Source: Marinobacter bohaiensis (GTDB lineage Bacteria > Pseudomonadota > Gammaproteobacteria > Pseudomonadales > Oleiphilaceae). Taken from it: a stretch of DNA of 64,000 nt. The position numbers and the translations under genes are program-made. Location: assembly GCF_003258515.1 (NCBI RefSeq), contig NZ_QGEH01000001.1, positions 2,108,001-2,172,000 on the forward strand. Direction: 5' to 3'. Positions 3,395-64,000 of the stretch are shown here, piece after piece. The notes beneath the pieces were generated by a model that was not told the origin of the DNA, made no database searches, and saw only the letters and a program-made list of their open reading frames with translations. Within the stretch, counting starts at the first letter, position 1. The number at the start of each line of letters is the position of its first letter.

Positions 3395-4116
3395 CCATGG
3401 GAACCATCTACGGCGTAGGATTGGGCCCGGGTGCCCAGGACCTGATGAGCGTGCGGTCGGATCGCCTGATCCGGCAGGCCTCCCATGTGGCGTATTTCCG
3501 CAAGAAGGGCCGCACCGGCCACGCGCGCAGCATCGTCGAGGGCATGCTGAGCGCCGACGCCGTCGAGCTGCCGATGGAATACCCGGTCACCACCGAGATT
3601 CCGTTCGACGACCCACGCTACAACGAGCTGTTGTCGAACTTCTACGAGGGCAGCGTCGCCCAGTTGATCGAAATTGCCCGGGCCGGACACGACGTGGTGG
3701 TCCTGTGCGAGGGCGACCCGTTTTTCTACGGCTCGTTCATGCACCTCTACACCCGTTTGCGGGACGTCGTACCGGTATCGGTGGTGCCCGGAATCACCGG
3801 CATGTCCGCCGCCTGGACCGCCACCGGGCAGCCGATCACCTGGGGCGATGACGTTTTGACCGTCGCCATGGGAACGCTGCCGGAGGACACCCTGGCCGAG
3901 CGCATCGCCCGGACCGACGCGCTGGTGGTGATGAAGATCGGTCGCAACCTGGCCAAGGTCCGGCGGGCGCTGGCCCAGGCGGGCCGCGAGGCGGACGCCT
4001 GGCTGATTGAGTACGCGGCCATGTCGAAGGAACGGGTGATCCCGTTCGCGGAGGCGGGCGACAGCGCGCCGTATTTCTCCATCCTGGTGATTCACGGCAA
4101 CGGGAGACGGCCATGA
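3391..4116 (+). CDS. cobI: Precorrin-2 C20-methyltransferase CobI
   Basis: This is an SAM-dependent tetrapyrrole methylase that methylates precorrin-2 at C-20 to give precorrin-3A. The N-terminal 'GTIYGVGLGPGAQDLMSVRS' is the family's glycine-rich start, and 'VVLCEGDPFFYGSFMHLY' is the conserved GDP-type methylase motif of the CobI/CbiL branch. 'VVPGITGMSAAW' follows in the usual place. It is 241 residues long, as expected. The start overlaps the cobH stop by 4 bases (ATGA). Confidence 0.95.
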   Translation: MTMGTIYGVGLGPGAQDLMSVRSDRLIRQASHVAYFRKKGRTGHARSIVEGMLSADAVELPMEYPVTTEIPFDDPRYNELLSNFYEGSVAQLIEIARAGHDVVVLCEGDPFFYGSFMHLYTRLRDVVPVSVVPGITGMSAAWTATGQPITWGDDVLTVAMGTLPEDTLAERIARTDALVVMKIGRNLAKVRRALAQAGREADAWLIEYAAMSKERVIPFAEAGDSAPYFSILVIHGNGRRP

Positions 4117-9975: not shown

Positions 9976-10731
9976 CTACGTGGGCTCGGGCAGTGCCACG
10001 ACGAACTCCAGAATGGCGTTAGCCACCGCCTCCGGTGCGGAAGCCTGGGGGAAGTGCCCGGTGTCCAGTGTGACTCGTCGTGCCCCGGGTACGCGTGCCT
10101 GCATCTCCCGCTGCACTTCGAGTATCACCGAACGGTCCTGCGCCGCCTCGATGTAGAGTCGCGGCAGACGGCCGAAGCGATCGGCGCTCCAGGTCGGCAC
10201 CATGGCGCGGCCGGACTCCGGCTGGGGCGTCAGTCGCGCTGCCAGCGTTGAGGCGTCTTCAACCGGTAAATCCTGCAGAAAAATGTCCAGGGCTGCCGCT
10301 TCCGGGACCGCGCTGACGGTTCCCTCTTCGGACCAGTCGAGGTGAGGGCCGATGCCGGCGGCGTGGGGAAGGCGTTGCTGGACCGGCTTGACCAGATCAG
10401 CAAAACCGGTGCCGCTGGGCAGCATCATCCCGGTGATAAAGACCACGCCATACACCTGATCGACTAGGGCTTCCGCCACCTGGGTGGCGACGACACCGCC
10501 GCCGGAGTGACCGACCAGCACCACCTTGGCCGACCCAATCGCCGTGCTCACGACATCGACGAAGTTCTCCAGGGTGGCCGGACCCGGTGTCTGGCCATTG
10601 CCCGGCAAATCGACGGCGAGGGTGGGGTAGCCGGCGGCGTTCAGCAAGGGCTCGACCCGGCTCCAGCCCCAACTGCCGGCCCAGGCACCATGAATCAGCA
10701 CCATCGTCGGTTTTGAGGGCATCTCAGGCAT
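9976..10731 (-). CDS. Alpha/beta-hydrolase
   Basis: A 251-residue alpha/beta-hydrolase. It shows 'TMVLIHGAWAGSWGW' (oxyanion HG), the nucleophile elbow G-H-S-G-G in 'KVVLVGHSGGG', and a late 'LDTGHFP' that would hold the catalytic His. The substrate cannot be read from sequence; the 'HGAWAGSWGW' start is common in small esterases. The ATG at 10731 is chosen because it starts 8 bases inside the end of the upstream oxygenase gene (coupled) and gives a normal N-terminus; the longer frame upstream is antisense shadow. Probably one operon with the oxygenase. Confidence 0.85.
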   Translation of the reverse strand: MPEMPSKPTMVLIHGAWAGSWGWSRVEPLLNAAGYPTLAVDLPGNGQTPGPATLENFVDVVSTAIGSAKVVLVGHSGGGVVATQVAEALVDQVYGVVFITGMMLPSGTGFADLVKPVQQRLPHAAGIGPHLDWSEEGTVSAVPEAAALDIFLQDLPVEDASTLAARLTPQPESGRAMVPTWSADRFGRLPRLYIEAAQDRSVILEVQREMQARVPGARRVTLDTGHFPQASAPEAVANAILEFVVALPEPT

Positions 10732-21439: not shown

Positions 21440-21513
21440 GGCGCGGTGGCAGAGTGGTTATGCAGCGGACTGCAACTCCGTGTACGCCGGTTCGATTCCG
21501 ACCCGCGCCTCCA
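21440..21513 (+). tRNA. tRNA-Cys (GCA), carrying attL
   Basis: Acceptor GGCGCGG/CCGCGCC, anticodon arm GCGGA-CTGCAAC-TCCGT with anticodon GCA, T arm with GGTTCGATTCC, discriminator T and encoded CCA. Its last 44 bases are repeated exactly at 55939-55982, so it is the integration target of the prophage and was left intact by the integration. Confidence 0.97.
21470..21513. repeat. attL: attL core (44 bp, 3' end of tRNA-Cys)
   Basis: Identical to 55939-55982, running from the anticodon loop to the encoded CCA. The flanking bases differ on both sides (A before here, G before the right copy; T after here, A after the right copy), which fixes the repeat length. Confidence 0.93.
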
Positions 21514-21604: not shown

Positions 21605-22852
21605 TCACTGTTTTCGCTTGGCAGCTTCGATCGATTTCAGCGTCGACCTGCTCCGTTCCGGCGGCGTGATAAGCCGGTAGTGCCGGCGCATCGCCTCGGT
21701 CTGGTGGCCACCTTTGTTGTTCTCGCCCTGGGAAACGAATTCGTCGGTCAGTCCTTTCTTTCGGAGATCCCGCAGCTGGTACTGGCCACCGTAGCCGGCA
21801 TCTTTGCAGGCCTGTGCCCACGACAGTTGCATGAAGCGGTGCTTCACTGGCTGGTGGCGGCTGCGCTTGTCGAAGTAGGAGGGGTACACCATCAGGTAAG
21901 GGGAGATGATGCCCTGCTGGCGCTTGAAGGTGCGGAACCAGTCCACCAGGTGGCGCAGGTCTTCGTTCATCTCCAGGATGATGGCCACGCCGGTTTTGTG
22001 TCTGGCGAAGTGGATCTCGCCCATCGGGCCCTGGTCATCGTGAATCTGTTCTTCCCGCAGGCCGAACACATCGATGGGCTGCTGGCTCATCATGTAGATC
22101 ATGTCGCAGATCTTGGCCCGCCAGGTGCCGTCGTGGGTTTGTCGGTGCAGCTTGTGCTCGAGGAGCTGGGCGGATATCTCGGCGTAGGCATCGTCGGGGA
22201 TGAGTACTTCCCGCTTTGGCTCTGTCGCCTTCTTCACATCGGGTATCGGGTTTCGGTCGATCAAACCGTCCTCGACTGCATGGCTGAACACCCGGGAAAG
22301 CGTATTTCTCAGGCCGTTGTAGTGCACCGGCTTGGTGTTCCAGGAAGACAGCAGGCGCCGGACCTTCCGCAGCAAGGCCGGGTCGGTGAGCGTGAAGTTG
22401 GAGTGGTCGCTCGCCTCCAGCTGCTGCGCATCGTTGGCGTAGTCGCGCCGGGTTGGCTCGGCGATCGGGCGGCCACGGTTGCGACCGCGCTCACTGAGGA
22501 CATGGCACTCGGCCCATTCCACGCGGCCATCGATTACACGGTGGCCGAGTACTTCTGTTCGCCAGCGCTTCAGGTACTGCCGCAGGGTGGTGCGGCCTGC
22601 TGACTGGGCCGGGCGGGCCGCGGCCATTGTGCCGGCCATTCGTTGCACGTCGAACTCAGTCGAGGATTGCTCCCATACCTGCTGGAGCATGGCCCAGCGG
22701 CGGATAGCGGTTTGCCTGTCTTTGGTCTGAAGGCTGCCCTGTTTGCGGGTAACCGGATGGCGCACGTGGAAGACGCCATCGCGGGAATTAATGTAAAGGC
22801 CAGGGTAGCGGGCAAGCCACTCCTGGCCAAGTTTTCTGCGTGGTGGGGCCAT
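21605..22852 (-). CDS. int: Tyrosine-recombinase integrase
   Basis: A 415-residue phage integrase that would recombine attP with the tRNA-Cys attB. An N-terminal arm-binding/SAM-like region is followed by the catalytic domain. Box II reads R361-D-L-R364 ('LRDLRKKGLTD'), His383 and the nucleophile Tyr392 in 'MRRHYRL'. The position of the first catalytic arginine, usually T-G-Q-R-P, reads 'SQQPIDVFGLR' with Gln258 instead of Arg. The gene points toward the tRNA and is the last of the early operon, two bases after the putative xis. Confidence 0.92.
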   Translation of the reverse strand: MAPPRRKLGQEWLARYPGLYINSRDGVFHVRHPVTRKQGSLQTKDRQTAIRRWAMLQQVWEQSSTEFDVQRMAGTMAAARPAQSAGRTTLRQYLKRWRTEVLGHRVIDGRVEWAECHVLSERGRNRGRPIAEPTRRDYANDAQQLEASDHSNFTLTDPALLRKVRRLLSSWNTKPVHYNGLRNTLSRVFSHAVEDGLIDRNPIPDVKKATEPKREVLIPDDAYAEISAQLLEHKLHRQTHDGTWRAKICDMIYMMSQQPIDVFGLREEQIHDDQGPMGEIHFARHKTGVAIILEMNEDLRHLVDWFRTFKRQQGIISPYLMVYPSYFDKRSRHQPVKHRFMQLSWAQACKDAGYGGQYQLRDLRKKGLTDEFVSQGENNKGGHQTEAMRRHYRLITPPERSRSTLKSIEAAKRKQ

Positions 22853-55938: not shown

Positions 55939-56873
<935 letters not shown>

Positions 56874-59297
56874 ATGGACCATAGCGTACACAATAAACTC
56901 GTTTCATTTATCTGGAATATCGCCGACGACTGCCTGCGCGACGTGTATGTGCGAGGAAAGTACCGTGACGTCATACTGCCGATGGTGGTATTGCGTCGCC
57001 TGGATACCTTGCTGGAGCCCACCAAAAAAGCCGTTCTGGACGAGGTCCGATACCAGAAGGAGGAGATGGAATCCACTGAGTTGGACGAAGAACCACTCAA
57101 AGAAGCTTCCGGCTATGTGTTCTACAACGTCTCCAAGTGGACGCTCACCAGCCTGTACAACACCGCCACCAATAATCGGCAGATCCTGCTGGCAAACTTC
57201 GAGGAATACCTCAACGGTTTCAGCCCCAACGTCCATGAAATCATCGAGCGGTTCGAGCTGAAGAGTAAAATCCAGCACATGGCCCACAAGGACGTGCTGT
57301 TGGATGTGGTGGAGAAGTTCGTCTCGCCGAAAATCAACCTCACCCCCAACGACACCGTGGACCCGGATGGCTACAAACTACCTGCGCTATCCAACCTGGG
57401 CATGGGTTATGTGTTTGAAGAGCTGATTCGCAAGTTCAATGAGGAAAATAACGAAGAGGCCGGGGAACACTTCACTCCGCGGGAAGTGATCGAGCTGATG
57501 ACCCACCTGGTGTTTGATCCCATCAAGAATGACTTGCCGCTCACTCTCACTGTGTACGACCCGGCCTGTGGCAGCGGTGGCATGCTCACCGAATCGCAAA
57601 ACTTCATTGAAGAGAAATATCCCTCCGACAACAGGGATATTTACCTCTACGGCAAGGAAATCAACGACGAAACCTACGCCATCTGTAAATCCGACATGAT
57701 GATCAAGGGCAACAACCCGGAAAACATCAAGGTCGGCTCCACCCTGTCCACCGATGAGTTCGCCTCCAGCCGTTTCGACTTCATGCTCTCCAACCCGCCC
57801 TACGGCAAAAGCTGGGCCTCGGAACAGAAGCACATCAAGGATGGCGGCGACGTGATCGACCCGCGCTTCAAGATCAAGCTCCGGGACTACTGGGGCAATG
57901 AAGAAGACTGCGACGCCACCCCGCGCTCCAGCGATGGCCAACTGCTGTTCCTCATGGAAATGGTCAGCAAGATGAAGGACCCGGCCAGTGGCTCCAAGGG
58001 CAGTCGTATCGCCTCGGTCCACAACGGCTCCAGCCTGTTCACCGGCGATGCCGGCGGCGGCGAAAGCAACATCCGCCGCTACCTGATCGAGAACGACTGG
58101 CTGGAAGCCATCGTCCAGTTGCCCAACAACCTGTTCTACAACACCGGCATAACCACCTATATCTGGGTGTTGAACAACAACAAGCCGGAACCGCGCCGTG
58201 GCAAGGTGCAGTTGATCGATGCCAGCCTGCTGTACCGCAAGCTGCGCAAGAACCTGGGCAACAAGAACTGCGAATTCGCCCCGGAGCATATCGAGGCAAT
58301 CACCCGCACCTACCTGGACTGCGCCGCCATCGAGCGGGAGTCGGATGACAACAACGATCCCGTCGACATCGCCAGCCAGGTATTCCGCAACGAAGACTTC
58401 GGTTACCACAAGGTCACCATCGAACGCCCGGACCGCCGCAAGGCCCAGTTCTCCGAAGAGCGCATTGCCGGTCTGCGCTTCGACAAGCAGATCAGCGAAG
58501 TCATGGAGTACCTCTATGCCGAACACGGCGACAAGGTCTACGACAAGAGCGGTCACGGCAAGGACAATAAACAAAGCTTCCTGAAAAGTATCGAAAAGCC
58601 GGTCATGGCCTGGTGTGAAGACAACGACATCAGCCTCAACACCAAGGCCAAAACAAAGCTGCTGGACGTTAAACGCTGGGACAGCCTCAAGGCTCTGGTG
58701 GAAACCGCCCGTGAACTCATGGCCGCCATTGGTGAGGGCGAGTTCAACGACTTCAACCAGTTCAAGCAGCAGGTAGACGTCGAACTTGAGGCCAGAAAGA
58801 TCAAGCTCTCCGCCACCGAGAAGAACGCCATTCTCAATGCTGTGAGCTGGTACGACGAAACCGCCGAAAAGGTGGTCAAGAAAGTCGTCAAAATCAATGG
58901 TGACAAGCTGGATGAACTGCTGCACCGGTACGACTGCACCCAGGATCAACTACCGGACTACGGCCTGTATCCCACCGGTAAAGCCAATGAATACCTCACC
59001 TACGAGCCGTGCTCGGACCTGCGCGACAGCGAATCCATCCCCCTGCTCAAGGACGGCGACAAGCAAGCCATCCACAACTATTTCCAGGAAGAAGTGAAGC
59101 CCCATGTGGAAGAATCCTGGATCAACCTGGATTCCACCAAGATCGGCTACGAAATCAGCTTCAACAAATACTTCTACCGCCACAAACCGCTTCGTTCACT
59201 GGAAGAGGTCGCCCAGGACATTATCAGTCTGGAGCAGAAATCGGAGGGACTGATTGCACAGATTTTGGGTGTGGATGTTCAGCAGGTGCAGGGGTAA
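56874..59297 (+). CDS. hsdM: Type I restriction-modification DNA methyltransferase subunit HsdM
   Basis: An 807-residue N6-adenine methyltransferase. An N-terminal HsdM_N helical domain ('KLVSFIWNIADDCLRDVYVRGKYRDVILPMVVLRRLD') is followed by SAM motif I 'DPACGSGGM' (from Asp229) and catalytic motif IV Asn307-Pro-Pro-Tyr310 ('LSNPPYGKSW'). It is longer than the classical about 500-residue HsdM: roughly 250 extra C-terminal residues ('HRYDCTQDQLPDYGLYPTG', 'GYEISFNKYFYRHKPLRSLEEVAQDI'), a form seen in a large HsdM subgroup. All catalytic motifs are intact. hsdS follows at once. Confidence 0.95.
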   Translation: MDHSVHNKLVSFIWNIADDCLRDVYVRGKYRDVILPMVVLRRLDTLLEPTKKAVLDEVRYQKEEMESTELDEEPLKEASGYVFYNVSKWTLTSLYNTATNNRQILLANFEEYLNGFSPNVHEIIERFELKSKIQHMAHKDVLLDVVEKFVSPKINLTPNDTVDPDGYKLPALSNLGMGYVFEELIRKFNEENNEEAGEHFTPREVIELMTHLVFDPIKNDLPLTLTVYDPACGSGGMLTESQNFIEEKYPSDNRDIYLYGKEINDETYAICKSDMMIKGNNPENIKVGSTLSTDEFASSRFDFMLSNPPYGKSWASEQKHIKDGGDVIDPRFKIKLRDYWGNEEDCDATPRSSDGQLLFLMEMVSKMKDPASGSKGSRIASVHNGSSLFTGDAGGGESNIRRYLIENDWLEAIVQLPNNLFYNTGITTYIWVLNNNKPEPRRGKVQLIDASLLYRKLRKNLGNKNCEFAPEHIEAITRTYLDCAAIERESDDNNDPVDIASQVFRNEDFGYHKVTIERPDRRKAQFSEERIAGLRFDKQISEVMEYLYAEHGDKVYDKSGHGKDNKQSFLKSIEKPVMAWCEDNDISLNTKAKTKLLDVKRWDSLKALVETARELMAAIGEGEFNDFNQFKQQVDVELEARKIKLSATEKNAILNAVSWYDETAEKVVKKVVKINGDKLDELLHRYDCTQDQLPDYGLYPTGKANEYLTYEPCSDLRDSESIPLLKDGDKQAIHNYFQEEVKPHVEESWINLDSTKIGYEISFNKYFYRHKPLRSLEEVAQDIISLEQKSEGLIAQILGVDVQQVQG

Positions 59298-59303
59298 GTG
59301 GTG

Positions 59304-60614
59304 ATGTTGAGTATTGCTGAATTTCCAAAGTATGAGGCGTACAAAGACTCCAAGATGACATGGGTGTCAGAATTTCCAGAGTCTTGGAGGATCGAAAAAG
59401 GGAAGTGGCTATTCAGTCGAGCTGAGCGACCTGTTCGAAGTGAGGATGAAATTGTCACATGCTTTCGCGACGGAGTGGTAACGCTGAGGAAGAATCGCCG
59501 TACTGAAGGTTTCACCAACGCGATGAAAGAACATGGCTACCAGGGAATCAGGAAAGGTGATCTCGTCATACATGCCATGGACGCCTTTGCGGGTGCTATT
59601 GGAGTATCTGATTCCGATGGAAAATCAACTCCGGTCTATGCTGCTTGTGTTCCAAGAAATAAAGGAGAGGTGCTCCCCGAGTTTTATGCCTACTTTTTGC
59701 GGGATATGGCTCTTTCAGGGTTTGTGGCTTCTTTGGCCAAAGGAATAAGAGAAAGGTCTACTGACTTCAGATTTAATGACTTCGCCAATCTTGATCTTCC
59801 AGTTCCGTTGTTTGAAGAGCAAAGGATAATCGCTAAATTCCTCGACAAAAAAACCACCCAAATCGACGAAGCCATTGCCATCAAAGAGCAGCAGATCGCC
59901 CTGCTGAAAGAGCGCAAGCAAATCATTATCCAAAAAACCGTCACCCAGGGCCTTGATCCCAATGTGCCCATGAAAGATTCCGGCGTCGACTGGGTTGGGG
60001 AGATTCCGGCTCATTGGGAGGTTCGTAGAGGGAAATATATATTCAAGAAGGAGTCTAGGCCGGTGAGAGGGTGCGATGAAGTGGTTACATGTTTCAGGGA
60101 TGGCCAAGTTACATTGCGATCGAATAGGAGGTCAGATGGCTTCACTTTTGCTATCAAGGAGCACGGCTATCAGGGGGTGAGAAAGGGGGACTTGGTTATC
60201 CATGCGATGGATGCGTTCGCGGGCGCTATCGGTGTTTCTGACTCTGATGGGAAGTCGAGTCCAGTTTATGCCGTATGTAGGCCCTTCGATAGGGCCCAAG
60301 TTAATTCAAAATATTATGCTTTATATCTAAGAAATTTAGCGTTGAATGGGTTTATAGAATCTTTAGCGAAAGGGATTAGAGAGCGATCTACAGATTTTAG
60401 GTTCAAGGACTTTTCAGAGTTGTTTCTTCCTGTTCCAGATTTATTAACTCAGGACCAGGTGGTCGAGGAAATCGAAAAAAACCATGCAGTTATTGATGCT
60501 GCGATTAGTGAACTTCTGAAGCAAATAATCAAAGTTGTGGAGTATAGAAGTACTTTAATCAACAGCGCCGTCACCGGAAAAATCCGAATCACACCCGATA
60601 TGGTGGAGGCCTGA
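59304..60614 (+). CDS. hsdS: Type I specificity subunit HsdS with two near-duplicate target-recognition domains
   Basis: A 436-residue specificity subunit. Two half-repeats each hold a target-recognition domain (about residues 45-170 and 255-380) and a coiled-coil spacer ('LFEEQRIIAKFLDKKTTQID', 'EQQIALLKERKQIIIQKTVTQG'). The two recognition domains are about three quarters identical by hand count (93 of 126 positions), including a shared block starting 'KGDLVIHAMDAFAGAIGVSD'. Normally they differ and read two unlike half-sites. ATG 59304 has GGGG nine bases upstream; GTG 59298 and 59301 are alternatives. The recognition domains are AT-richer than the spacer. Confidence 0.93.
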   Translation: MLSIAEFPKYEAYKDSKMTWVSEFPESWRIEKGKWLFSRAERPVRSEDEIVTCFRDGVVTLRKNRRTEGFTNAMKEHGYQGIRKGDLVIHAMDAFAGAIGVSDSDGKSTPVYAACVPRNKGEVLPEFYAYFLRDMALSGFVASLAKGIRERSTDFRFNDFANLDLPVPLFEEQRIIAKFLDKKTTQIDEAIAIKEQQIALLKERKQIIIQKTVTQGLDPNVPMKDSGVDWVGEIPAHWEVRRGKYIFKKESRPVRGCDEVVTCFRDGQVTLRSNRRSDGFTFAIKEHGYQGVRKGDLVIHAMDAFAGAIGVSDSDGKSSPVYAVCRPFDRAQVNSKYYALYLRNLALNGFIESLAKGIRERSTDFRFKDFSELFLPVPDLLTQDQVVEEIEKNHAVIDAAISELLKQIIKVVEYRSTLINSAVTGKIRITPDMVEA

Positions 60615-60620
60615 TCCAGC

Positions 60621-62024
60621 ATGACTGTACAGGTCGCCACGTGCAGCGCTGCCCAGCTCTTCTCTGAACGTTTGCATCCAGAGTCATCGTCCAGCGCCAA
60701 TACCATTATCACCAGCGATAACGAGACGGTGGCAGGAGCGCTGACCATCCCTGAATACCAGCGCCCCTATTGCTGGCGGGACAAGCAACTGGCGGGTTTG
60801 CTTCAGGATATCTCGTCGCACACCCAGCGAAAGGCCGAACTGCCTTATTATTTGGGCAGCCTGATCCTGCATCAGGAAGGCGATAAGCTGAATATCATCG
60901 ATGGCCAGCAGCGCATTACCACCCTGGCGCTGATGGGCTGCCTACTGGATTCCGACCCGTTGAGCATCGGCGGCCTGGTCTACGAACACCCCATCAGCCA
61001 ACAGCAGATCAAGCATAACCTCCAGTGGCTCCGCGACCGTCTGGATCGGGTGCGGAACTGGATCGACTTCAACAAGCTGCAATTCACCCTGGTAATTACC
61101 CAGTCCGAAGACGATGCCTACCGCTTCTTTGAAACCCAGAACACCGGCGGCGTGCGGCTGGGCGGGCCGGATATCATCAAGGCGCATCACCTGCGGGCGA
61201 TTGATAACAAATCGCTCCAGCCACAGTTTGCCCGGCAGTGGGAGGCCATGGGCAAACTGGACAGCACCGTCAGCGCCTTGTTGAAAGGCCGCTTCTGGCA
61301 AAGTGTGAAGCCTCGAGAGCTGCCGTCCCACAACCAGAAGAAGCTGATCCGTGACTGTATTGTGGACGAATTGGCGCAGGCTACCGGTGATGGCGACGAC
61401 GTCGCCTATGGCCGCATCCGTCGTCAGGTCGGCCTGGCGGGCGAGATCAGCCAGCAGACGGACCAGCAGGGCTACGAGGTGCGCCAGCCGCTGAATGCCG
61501 GCATCAACAGCATCCGCTACCTGGCCTATTTTAAGGAGTTGCACCAACGCTACTGGCAGCAGCCAGACCTGCCGCATCTGCCTGGCTATCAGCAGTTTGT
61601 GCAATGGCTGAAAGATCTGGGTGGGTGTGGTTACCTGGAAAAACTCTACGAAGCCTGCCTGCTGCTCTATATTAGCCAGTTCGGCGAAAACCAACTGGAG
61701 CAGGCCGCCAAAAAGCTGTTCCGGGTGGTGTATTCCCGCCGGGTCAGTAATCAGAAATCCGTGCGGGAAAATTCCATCCCTTCCTTCATTGGCAAGTATC
61801 CCGTACTGGACTGGATTGCCGCCAGTTATACCCCGGCACAGTGCTTTGCCTTTCTCGACGCTTTTGAGTTGAAGGTGGACCCCAGCAATCTGGACAAGAA
61901 CAGCGTGAAGCAGCGGTTTGTGAAAGCTGTCTGCGAGCAATTCGAGCTTGGGCTGGAGGTCAGTGAGTATGCAAAGGGATTTGCCCCAGCCTTGAACCAG
62001 AAAGTAGCCGGAGTGCAGCGATGA
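60621..62024 (+). CDS. DUF262 (GmrS-like) protein
   Basis: A 467-residue protein with the ParB/Srx-like DUF262 domain: 'LTIPEYQRPYCWRDKQLAGLLQDI', the D94-G-Q-Q-R98 motif ('IIDGQQRITTLAL') and 'FFETQNTGGVRLGGPDIIKAHHL'. In GmrSD enzymes this domain binds and hydrolyses nucleotide and controls a nuclease. No C-terminal His-x-x-Pro DUF1524 motif is visible, so it may act with the next protein. It starts 6 bases after hsdS and overlaps the next gene by ATGA. Confidence 0.88.
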   Translation: MTVQVATCSAAQLFSERLHPESSSSANTIITSDNETVAGALTIPEYQRPYCWRDKQLAGLLQDISSHTQRKAELPYYLGSLILHQEGDKLNIIDGQQRITTLALMGCLLDSDPLSIGGLVYEHPISQQQIKHNLQWLRDRLDRVRNWIDFNKLQFTLVITQSEDDAYRFFETQNTGGVRLGGPDIIKAHHLRAIDNKSLQPQFARQWEAMGKLDSTVSALLKGRFWQSVKPRELPSHNQKKLIRDCIVDELAQATGDGDDVAYGRIRRQVGLAGEISQQTDQQGYEVRQPLNAGINSIRYLAYFKELHQRYWQQPDLPHLPGYQQFVQWLKDLGGCGYLEKLYEACLLLYISQFGENQLEQAAKKLFRVVYSRRVSNQKSVRENSIPSFIGKYPVLDWIAASYTPAQCFAFLDAFELKVDPSNLDKNSVKQRFVKAVCEQFELGLEVSEYAKGFAPALNQKVAGVQR

Positions 62025-64000
62025 CGGCAGCAGTTGAGCATCAGGTAAGGACAGAAGTGCTGACGCTGGAAAAAGTCAGCAACGCTGCCATGGGCTTTGT
62101 GATACCGAGCTACCAGCGTCCCTATGTGTGGAGTGATGAGGATGTGATCAAGCTCTTTGGTGACATTCGGGATGCCTTTGGCGCCAAAGAGCCGCATTAC
62201 TTTATCGGCAGCGTACTGTCAGCGCAGCATGATGTGAATGGCTCGAAGGTGTACGAGCTTATTGATGGTCAGCAGCGCACCACCACCCTGATGTTGCTGT
62301 CACTGGCCTTCAAAGCGGCCGATGTGCAATCGCAACTGGCCGACGCCTCCGTACTGGGTGACCAGCCGAGGCTCCGCTTCGAGATCCGTAATGCGGTGGG
62401 CAATCTGCTGGGCAGCTACGCGGGCCTGGAGCGCATGGCCCGCCCCGGCCCGGATGCCATCAAGAATGATCCTTACCTTACCCATCTGGATGCGAACCTG
62501 CGCGTGCTCAAACAGCAGGTAGAGAAGTTGTCCGAAAGCGATAAGTTCAGCCGTGAAGGGTTTGCCGATTACATCTTTAGGAAGGTGAGCTGGATCAACA
62601 ATATTGTCCCGGAGAGCATGGACCTCAATCGCCTGTTCGCGAGCATGAACACGGCAGGTATTCAGCTGGAGCCGGTGGACCTGTTGAAAGCCAAGCTGTT
62701 CCGCAAGATCACTACTGAGACGCCCCTGTACAGCGCCATCTGGCAGGCCTGCGAGCACATGGAGAACTACTTCGAACGCAATCTCCGCCAGTTGTTCCCC
62801 AATGCGAACTGGAATGCGATTGAGTACAAAGACTTGAGTGCCTATGAGCGCAGGTTCTTTGAGTCCAATGTAGGTGGAAGCGTTGAAGGTGAGAGTAAAG
62901 CGTCTGGAATGACACTGCTACACCTGCTCGATGAGGTCAAGGCGGGCAGGACAGCCGACAACGTTAAACCGAAAGAAGAAAACGACACCGAGGAAAGCAT
63001 TGAAGACGAAACCGTCTACTGTCGTTCAATCGTGGGTTTTGATCTGCTGTTGATTCATGCATTTCGAGTGTTCTGCGTCAGAAAAGGTTGGCCGGATATT
63101 GAAGCCCGTATCAAGGCCACCAACCTGATGGCGTGTTTTGAGCGCCTCCTCAGCAAAGACGAAGCGGATATCAAGGCGTTTATCCAGACGCTGTGGCAGG
63201 TGCGTTATCAATTCGATACCCAGGTGGTGAAGTGGGTAGAGCACGATGACAGCGAAGACCCGCAGTTGCGACTGACCAACATCAGCCGCTCGCCCTCCAG
63301 TGGGAAGTATTACATCAACCGCAGTGCTCGGGAGCTGGGAGCGCAGGCCCAGTTGCAGGCAGTGCGTAACTTCACCGGCGACCGTTCCGCCCATTACTGG
63401 CTAACGGCGCTGCTCGCTCGGCTGGTGGAACAACCCGGCATGAGCGATGAAGACGTATTGTATGTAATGGAAAAGCTGGATAACCAGCTCTCGCTGACCA
63501 CCGAAACCCAGAAAGAAGCCAGCTTCAGAATTGCCAAAGGCGAAGTGCCCGCAACAGAGAGTTGGGCTTCCATCCAAACTTATCTCAACAGTGCCCAGGG
63601 CACCGGCTTTGAGCATTACTGGTTCCAGAAACTGGAGTATTTGCTCTGGAAGCAGGGCGACAAGAGCGATGAAAAGCTCAGGCGATACCGAATTACCTCC
63701 AAGAACTCCGTGGAGCATGTGCATCCTCAGCATGAGGAATACAGAAAAGCCATATCCGAAACGGCGCTGGATGCTTTTGGCAACCTGGTACTGTTAAGTC
63801 CGGGCGAAAACTCCTCTTACAGTAACCAGACGGTTGGCAAGAAACGGGAAGATTTCCGAGGCAAGCTCCGCTATGACTCTTTGAAGCTCAAAGCCATCTT
63901 TGAGTTTTACGATCAGGCTGACGGGGTATGGGGTGAGGAGCAGATCGCCGAACATCAGGAACGCATGATTGCACTGCTGGAAAAACATTACAGGCAAGGA
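62021..64000 (+). CDS. DUF262-DUF1524 (GmrSD-like) protein, 3' end outside the window
   Basis: 660 residues are visible and the frame is still open at the right edge. The N-terminal DUF262 has 'IPSYQRPYVWSDEDVIKLFGDI' and D82-G-Q-Q-R86 ('LIDGQQRTTTLML'). The C-terminal DUF1524, a HNH-like nuclease, shows His566-Val-His568-Pro ('SVEHVHPQHE') and 'DAFGNLVLLS'. A highly charged stretch lies near residues 310-330. This is the single-chain GmrSD plan of type IV restriction enzymes that cut modified phage DNA. The start overlaps the previous stop as ATGA. Confidence 0.9.
   Translation, partial: MTAAVEHQVRTEVLTLEKVSNAAMGFVIPSYQRPYVWSDEDVIKLFGDIRDAFGAKEPHYFIGSVLSAQHDVNGSKVYELIDGQQRTTTLMLLSLAFKAADVQSQLADASVLGDQPRLRFEIRNAVGNLLGSYAGLERMARPGPDAIKNDPYLTHLDANLRVLKQQVEKLSESDKFSREGFADYIFRKVSWINNIVPESMDLNRLFASMNTAGIQLEPVDLLKAKLFRKITTETPLYSAIWQACEHMENYFERNLRQLFPNANWNAIEYKDLSAYERRFFESNVGGSVEGESKASGMTLLHLLDEVKAGRTADNVKPKEENDTEESIEDETVYCRSIVGFDLLLIHAFRVFCVRKGWPDIEARIKATNLMACFERLLSKDEADIKAFIQTLWQVRYQFDTQVVKWVEHDDSEDPQLRLTNISRSPSSGKYYINRSARELGAQAQLQAVRNFTGDRSAHYWLTALLARLVEQPGMSDEDVLYVMEKLDNQLSLTTETQKEASFRIAKGEVPATESWASIQTYLNSAQGTGFEHYWFQKLEYLLWKQGDKSDEKLRRYRITSKNSVEHVHPQHEEYRKAISETALDAFGNLVLLSPGENSSYSNQTVGKKREDFRGKLRYDSLKLKAIFEFYDQADGVWGEEQIAEHQERMIALLEKHYRQG

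Follow-up and report, generated by a model that had tools for sequence, protein, structure and literature searches.

An operon of Marinobacter bohaiensis, as read from its sequence, very probably constitutes a single two-layer defence locus, in which a type I restriction-modification system carries an embedded type IV guard formed by homologues of TgvA and TgvB. It is a further copy of the arrangement described in 2024 in Vibrio cholerae, where the operon VC1769-65 on VPI-2 comprises VC1769 (hsdM), VC1768 (hsdS), VC1767 (tgvA), VC1766 (tgvB) and VC1765 (hsdR) (Vizzarro et al., J Bacteriol 2024; PMC11411939), and it adds, from outside Vibrio, a well-preserved case of a type I operon into which a type IV guard is built.

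Five co-directional genes join a type I system to two DUF262 proteins

We analyzed a window of 64,000 nt (the whole stretch of DNA studied; contig NZ_QGEH01000001.1, positions 2108001-2172000) from the 4.76 Mb genome of M. bohaiensis. Reading frames and Pfam matches defined an operon of five genes in the order hsdM-hsdS-tgvA-tgvB-hsdR (M-S-A-B-R), all open and all in the same direction. In window coordinates, continued past its end, these are:

56874-59297, + strand: hsdM, type I N6-adenine methyltransferase, 807 aa (Pfam, PADLOC)
59304-60614, + strand: hsdS, specificity subunit, 436 aa (Pfam, PADLOC)
60621-62024, + strand: tgvA homologue, DUF262/GmrSD_N and DUF7834, 467 aa (Pfam, motifs, AlphaFold model)
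62021-64027 (cut by the window at 64000), + strand: tgvB homologue, DUF262 and DUF1524/His-Me nuclease, 668 aa
63956-64000, + strand: 3' tail of tgvB, ahead of the hsdR start and overlapping it; the stretch retained as a scar in the related locus L119
64008 to about 67031 (past the window; 10009-13032 of L002), + strand: hsdR, complete gene (Pfam)

The initial annotation had placed HsdM, HsdS, a DUF262 protein and a DUF262-DUF1524 protein in this order, and these genes were confirmed, with Pfam and PADLOC concordant on the two type I subunits and on both GmrSD-like proteins, together with their spacing: 6 bases lie between hsdM and hsdS and again between hsdS and tgvA, and tgvA and tgvB overlap in an ATGA. 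Its statement that no hsdR appears before the window end holds for the window itself, but hsdR starts at 64008, just beyond; reading the sequence past 64000, as it had proposed, revealed the complete hsdR directly downstream, starting inside tgvB with a 20-base overlap. A downstream hsdR, combined with dispensability of both DUF262 genes for all protection, had been named there as what would speak against the proposal, and the first half of this combination is what we found. The second half runs counter to the published V. cholerae homologue, in which the pair confers protection against Tevenvirinae.

The overlaps and short spacing suggest that the five genes form one transcript. A sigma-70 scan upstream found no promoter, and no terminator was found near hsdM. 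The 0.9-kb leader between the prophage repeat described below and hsdM contains just short unassigned ORFs of at most 61 aa on either strand. Genome-wide, this hsdM was the sole N6_Mtase match, and tgvA and tgvB were the only DUF262 genes in M. bohaiensis.

The type I part consists of a methyltransferase, a specificity subunit with two recognition domains and a nuclease with a helicase-like motor. HsdM matched N6_Mtase (7e-60) and HsdM_N (2e-23) and carries motif I (DPACGSGG, 229-236) and motif IV (NPPY, 307-310). HsdR matched HSDR_N, ResIII, SWI2_SNF2 and a T1R_D3-like domain, and its motifs are intact, including the nuclease residues EID (160-162) and ELK (176-178), the Walker A motif GSGKS (326) and DEAH (438).

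HsdS matched Methylase_S (2e-6), and its description as symmetric in the initial annotation was borne out: its halves share 58% identity over 201 residues, rising to 74% over 95-115 residues in the target-recognition cores (residues 44-158 and 254-368). This internal symmetry was the highest among 35 HsdS proteins, the rest of which reached at most 46% and mostly 23-35%. At the DNA level the cores are 62% identical, compared with 74% in protein, which indicates that the likeness of the halves is old and probably held by selection. In type I enzymes, two near-identical recognition domains are expected to give a palindromic bipartite target. The likeness of the recognition domains thus suggests that the target of M. 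bohaiensis HsdS is probably palindromic and bipartite.

TgvA and TgvB carry the domains, motifs and residue spacing of a two-protein type IV system

TgvA matched GmrSD_N (5e-29) followed by DUF7834 (1e-40), and TgvB matched GmrSD_N (2e-30) followed by GmrSD_C (9e-19). The genes are thus adjacent, with an N-terminal DUF262 domain in both products and DUF1524 in the second only, and the pair is embedded between hsdS and hsdR in the order M-S-A-B-R. Both proteins contain the QR, DGQQR and FxxxN motifs, found in TgvA as YQRPY (46-50), DGQQR (94-98) and FETQN (170-174) and in TgvB, for the latter two, as DGQQR (82-86) and FASMN (206-210). No HNH (EHxxP) motif was found in TgvA; the nuclease residues of TgvB are H566 and N597, the latter being the conserved second nuclease residue in aligned relatives. 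The 31-residue spacing between them equals that between H571 and N602 in the published protein, and a search of 227 Vibrio genomes gave two TgvB homologues with exactly H571 and N602.

The DGQQR motif was invariant in 43 TgvA and 46 TgvB relatives, and all family-wide invariant residues are retained in the two M. bohaiensis proteins, both of whose genes are intact. Among the residues that had been singled out for mutation in the initial annotation, D94 of TgvA and D82 and H566 of TgvB were invariant in aligned relatives, but H568 of TgvB was variable, with EHVHP in M. bohaiensis and EHFYP, among others, in relatives.

AlphaFold models of TgvA and TgvB had mean pLDDT values of 87 and 86, and the best structural matches of both were SspE, DndI and BrxU. 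The TgvA model aligned with SspE over 386 residues, most of its length (Z 13.1, rmsd 21), and the best match of the TgvB model extended over 523 residues (Z 18.3, rmsd 12.9); given the large rmsd values, these matches point to common domains and leave the domain arrangement unconfirmed. GmrSD, BrxU, SspE and DndI likewise combine a DUF262 NTPase/sensor domain with a DUF1524 nuclease. However, GmrSD family members are mostly single chains or S+D pairs, whereas TgvA has a DUF262 domain, no nuclease and a C-terminal DUF7834 domain. Profile alignment of TgvA with TgvB covered the DUF262 half only and ended near residue 255, so that a common origin of the C-terminal halves is without sequence support.

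The V. cholerae counterpart and a proposed mode of action

In V. cholerae, TgvA and TgvB form a two-protein type IV restriction system directed against hypermodified phage DNA, which protects E. coli against all 15 Tevenvirinae tested (15/15), and protection requires tgvA and tgvB, the DGQQR motif in each protein, and H571 and N602 of TgvB (PMC11411939). There, tgvAB suffices for protection from modified phages, and restriction of unmethylated plasmids is the work of the type I part; the concurrent study of Gomez and Waters is cited in the same paper for the escape of unglucosylated T2/T4. Why a second DUF262 protein without a nuclease is needed is a question that the authors leave open (PMC11411939).

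The M. bohaiensis operon resembles that of VPI-2 in its gene order M-S-A-B-R, a TgvA with DUF262 only, a TgvB with DUF262 and DUF1524, the QR, DGQQR and FxxxN motifs, the 31-residue His-Me spacing and a genomic island setting. It differs in that its island lies at tRNA-Cys, behind a P2-like prophage and without Zorya or DdmDE, and in that the V. cholerae HsdS motif, GATGNNNNNNCTT, is asymmetric whereas M. bohaiensis HsdS is near-symmetric. The putative orthology to V. cholerae TgvAB is based on a comparison of gene order, domains, motifs and the spacing of residues with the published description. In other Vibrio five-gene loci, TgvA was about 55% and TgvB about 52% identical to the M. bohaiensis proteins; with identities in this range, the modification recognised by the M. 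bohaiensis pair could differ.

By analogy with their families, HsdM2S would methylate a bipartite and probably palindromic host site, and HsdR2M2S would cut DNA without that methyl mark. Judging from the V. cholerae experiments and the residues conserved here, TgvA and TgvB would jointly attack DNA that carries hypermodified cytosine; this would require the nucleotide-binding motif in each of the DUF262 domains, and the TgvB nuclease would make the cut. Phages that evade the type I system by glycosylating their bases would then face TgvAB.

Most tgvAB pairs have no type I genes in the fetched flanks, and in five-gene loci the pair diverges with HsdM and HsdR

A profile scan of genome contigs with the TgvA alignment yielded 80 loci. 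tgvB directly followed tgvA in 79/79 loci with room for it, and the order M-S-A-B-R was present in 17 of the 80 loci, from several genera, with extra genes between tgvB and hsdR in three of them (L024, L030 and L048). A few loci had the order M-S-R-A-B or R-M-S-A-B, and 53 of the 80 contained the pair without type I genes, within fetched flanks that were in some cases short. DUF7834, the C-terminal family of TgvA, was found in 11 of 369 sampled gammaproteobacterial genomes. The published survey of 41,142 genomes gave 79 five-gene matches and 1,341 tgvAB matches (PMC11411939).

The same five-gene order also occurs on E. coli plasmid pLAO4 (NZ_OP242218, L004), and the order, for which the initial annotation had proposed a genome survey, is not found here alone. 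Compared with M. bohaiensis, the pLAO4 proteins are 81% (HsdM and HsdR), 60% (TgvA and TgvB) and 35% (HsdS) identical; the locus differs in being plasmid-borne and in having a shortened DUF4268-type gene between hsdS and tgvA. This gene (187 aa; 10038-10598) has a counterpart of the same kind and position in L015 (8421-8981), both as if decaying, and a DUF4268-type gene of roughly 387 aa is complete in L009, L014 and L048.

In 18-19 five-gene loci, pairwise identities of TgvA and TgvB were correlated with r 0.97-0.98, and those of TgvA/TgvB with HsdM/HsdR at r 0.85-0.90 (0.79-0.84 after removal of one Bacteroidota locus), whereas HsdS showed r about 0.2 with the other four proteins. That TgvAB tracks HsdM and HsdR but hardly HsdS is the pattern expected when an operon is passed on as a unit and its recognition domains are exchanged, and it speaks against a dependence of TgvAB on the HsdS target.

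Two of the loci with extra genes carry distinctive inserts between tgvB and hsdR. In Aliivibrio sifiae (L030, 12734-15974) the insert encodes a reverse transcriptase, an AAA ATPase and a third, small protein that resembles HNH proteins but has no Pfam match; together they may form a retron-type defence unit within the operon. In Parashewanella hymeniacidonis (L024, 12428-16598) the insert encodes a NERD/UvrD-like and TBP-TOTE protein and a second long protein.

The hsdS-hsdR gap of close relatives holds varied cargo and, in one, a tgvB scar

We compared this gap in genomes of the same taxonomic family whose HsdR is 71-94% identical to that of M. bohaiensis:

L119, gap at about 3735-3828, - strand: no cargo; HsdR 94% identical, the closest
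L120: tgvAB
L121: DUF4268 and SLFN_AlbA_2-like genes, with the SLFN_AlbA_2-like one split
L122: DUF4268-like and DUF3800 genes
L123, L124, L125, L127, L128: SLFN_AlbA_2-type protein
L126, 3725-7701, - strand: a different DUF262 and DUF262-DUF1524 pair

SLFN_AlbA_2/HATPase is among the cargo types in this gap, an assignment based on Pfam for L125 and a relative in L048, the others being homologous by eye. The DUF262 pair of L126 has weak similarity to TgvAB and is reminiscent, in its composition, of V. cholerae GrwAB.

The empty gap of L119 measures 92 bases. Just upstream of hsdR, 46 bases of this gap aligned to the 3' tail of tgvB with 37 matches and a local score of 28 against a best score of 16 in 1000 shuffles. 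We therefore rejected L119 as an ancestral empty site: the tgvB tail beside its hsdR indicates that tgvAB was deleted there and the tail kept as a deletion scar. Relatives that retain TgvAB, hold other cargo or keep a TgvAB scar form a natural set for asking whether the guard works alone or jointly with the type I system.

Other lineages also use this position. Campylobacter jejuni RloF and other R-linked ORFs are, as cited in PMC4619093, accessory defence genes between hsdS and hsdR, and EPEC carries DarTG2 there (PMC12255303), where the position is described as probably being a hotspot of defence-gene recombination. The slot is common to these systems and TgvAB, but the cargo is different, RloF being a single DUF262 protein and DarTG2 a toxin-antitoxin system.

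Alternative roles for the embedded pair

The initial annotation had offered two readings, and the one in which a standard type I system contains a nested type IV guard is upheld by the anatomy of the locus, the V. cholerae operon (PMC11411939) and recurrence elsewhere. Its other reading made TgvAB the restriction arm that cuts DNA unmethylated by HsdMS, with HsdR redundant or inactive. The location of tgvAB between hsdS and hsdR, the overlap with hsdR and a TgvB that is a nuclease by sequence all suit this role. However, hsdR is present with intact motifs, most tgvAB loci (53/80) lack hsd genes in the fetched flanks, TgvAB divergence follows HsdM/R (r 0.8-0.9) and hardly HsdS (about 0.2), and in V. 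cholerae the pair is enough to stop modified phages, restriction of unmethylated plasmids falling to the type I system (PMC11411939); we regard a restriction arm as extremely improbable. It is also very unlikely that tgvA and tgvB are passengers picked up by chance and idle in this host. The variety of cargo in the slot of relatives (DUF4268, SLFN_AlbA_2/HATPase, DUF3800 and another DUF262 pair) and the loss of the pair in the close relative L119 would fit such passengers, but neither gene is disrupted, all residues that are invariant across the family are present, and the pair is kept across 17 five-gene loci of several genera.

An independent type IV activity of TgvAB that is nevertheless linked, physically or kinetically, to the type I machinery, for instance by being loaded onto phage DNA through the HsdR motor or HsdMS, is unlikely, though less so than either of these roles. 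Coupling would explain why TgvAB tracks one HsdM/HsdR lineage while HsdS varies (18-19 five-gene loci), but co-inheritance in one operon accounts for the correlation without contact. In V. cholerae, the five-gene cluster was 10-100 fold more protective than tgvAB alone against several phages, even with nuclease-dead HsdR; the K172A substitution of this control hits the nuclease active site and does not test the motor (PMC11411939). The authors, however, attribute the 10-100 fold difference to expression balance, tgvAB alone protects in E. coli (PMC11411939), and free-standing tgvAB is common.

The operon occupies a small island at tRNA-Cys

The whole operon was probably acquired horizontally, as part of a small island at tRNA-Cys that is delimited by att-like repeats of 44-50 bases:

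21440-21513, + strand: tRNA-Cys gene; the first repeat copy consists of its last 44 bases at the 3' end (21470-21513)
21605-22852: integrase-like gene beside tRNA-Cys, identified by reading
55939-55988, + strand: second copy of the tRNA-Cys 3' end; left island boundary and right end of the P2-like prophage
67100-67149 (13101-13150 of L002): third copy, about 70 bases past hsdR

Repeats 1 and 2 flank a P2-like prophage, identified by reading, and repeats 2 and 3 flank an 11,161-base (11.2-kb) island with the five genes, the 0.9-kb leader and no integrase. GC content was 52.3% in the island, 60.2% in the prophage and 65-66% in the flanking chromosome. Lacking an integrase, the island looks as if it would need that of another element to move. 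No tRNA genes were found beside the operon in six relatives, and the tRNA island setting is thus not general. The five remaining species of this genus also have the repeat at tRNA-Cys, and in four of these five the recC-side flank lay 2 to 18 kb away, indicating that the tRNA-Cys interval carries varying amounts of DNA across species.
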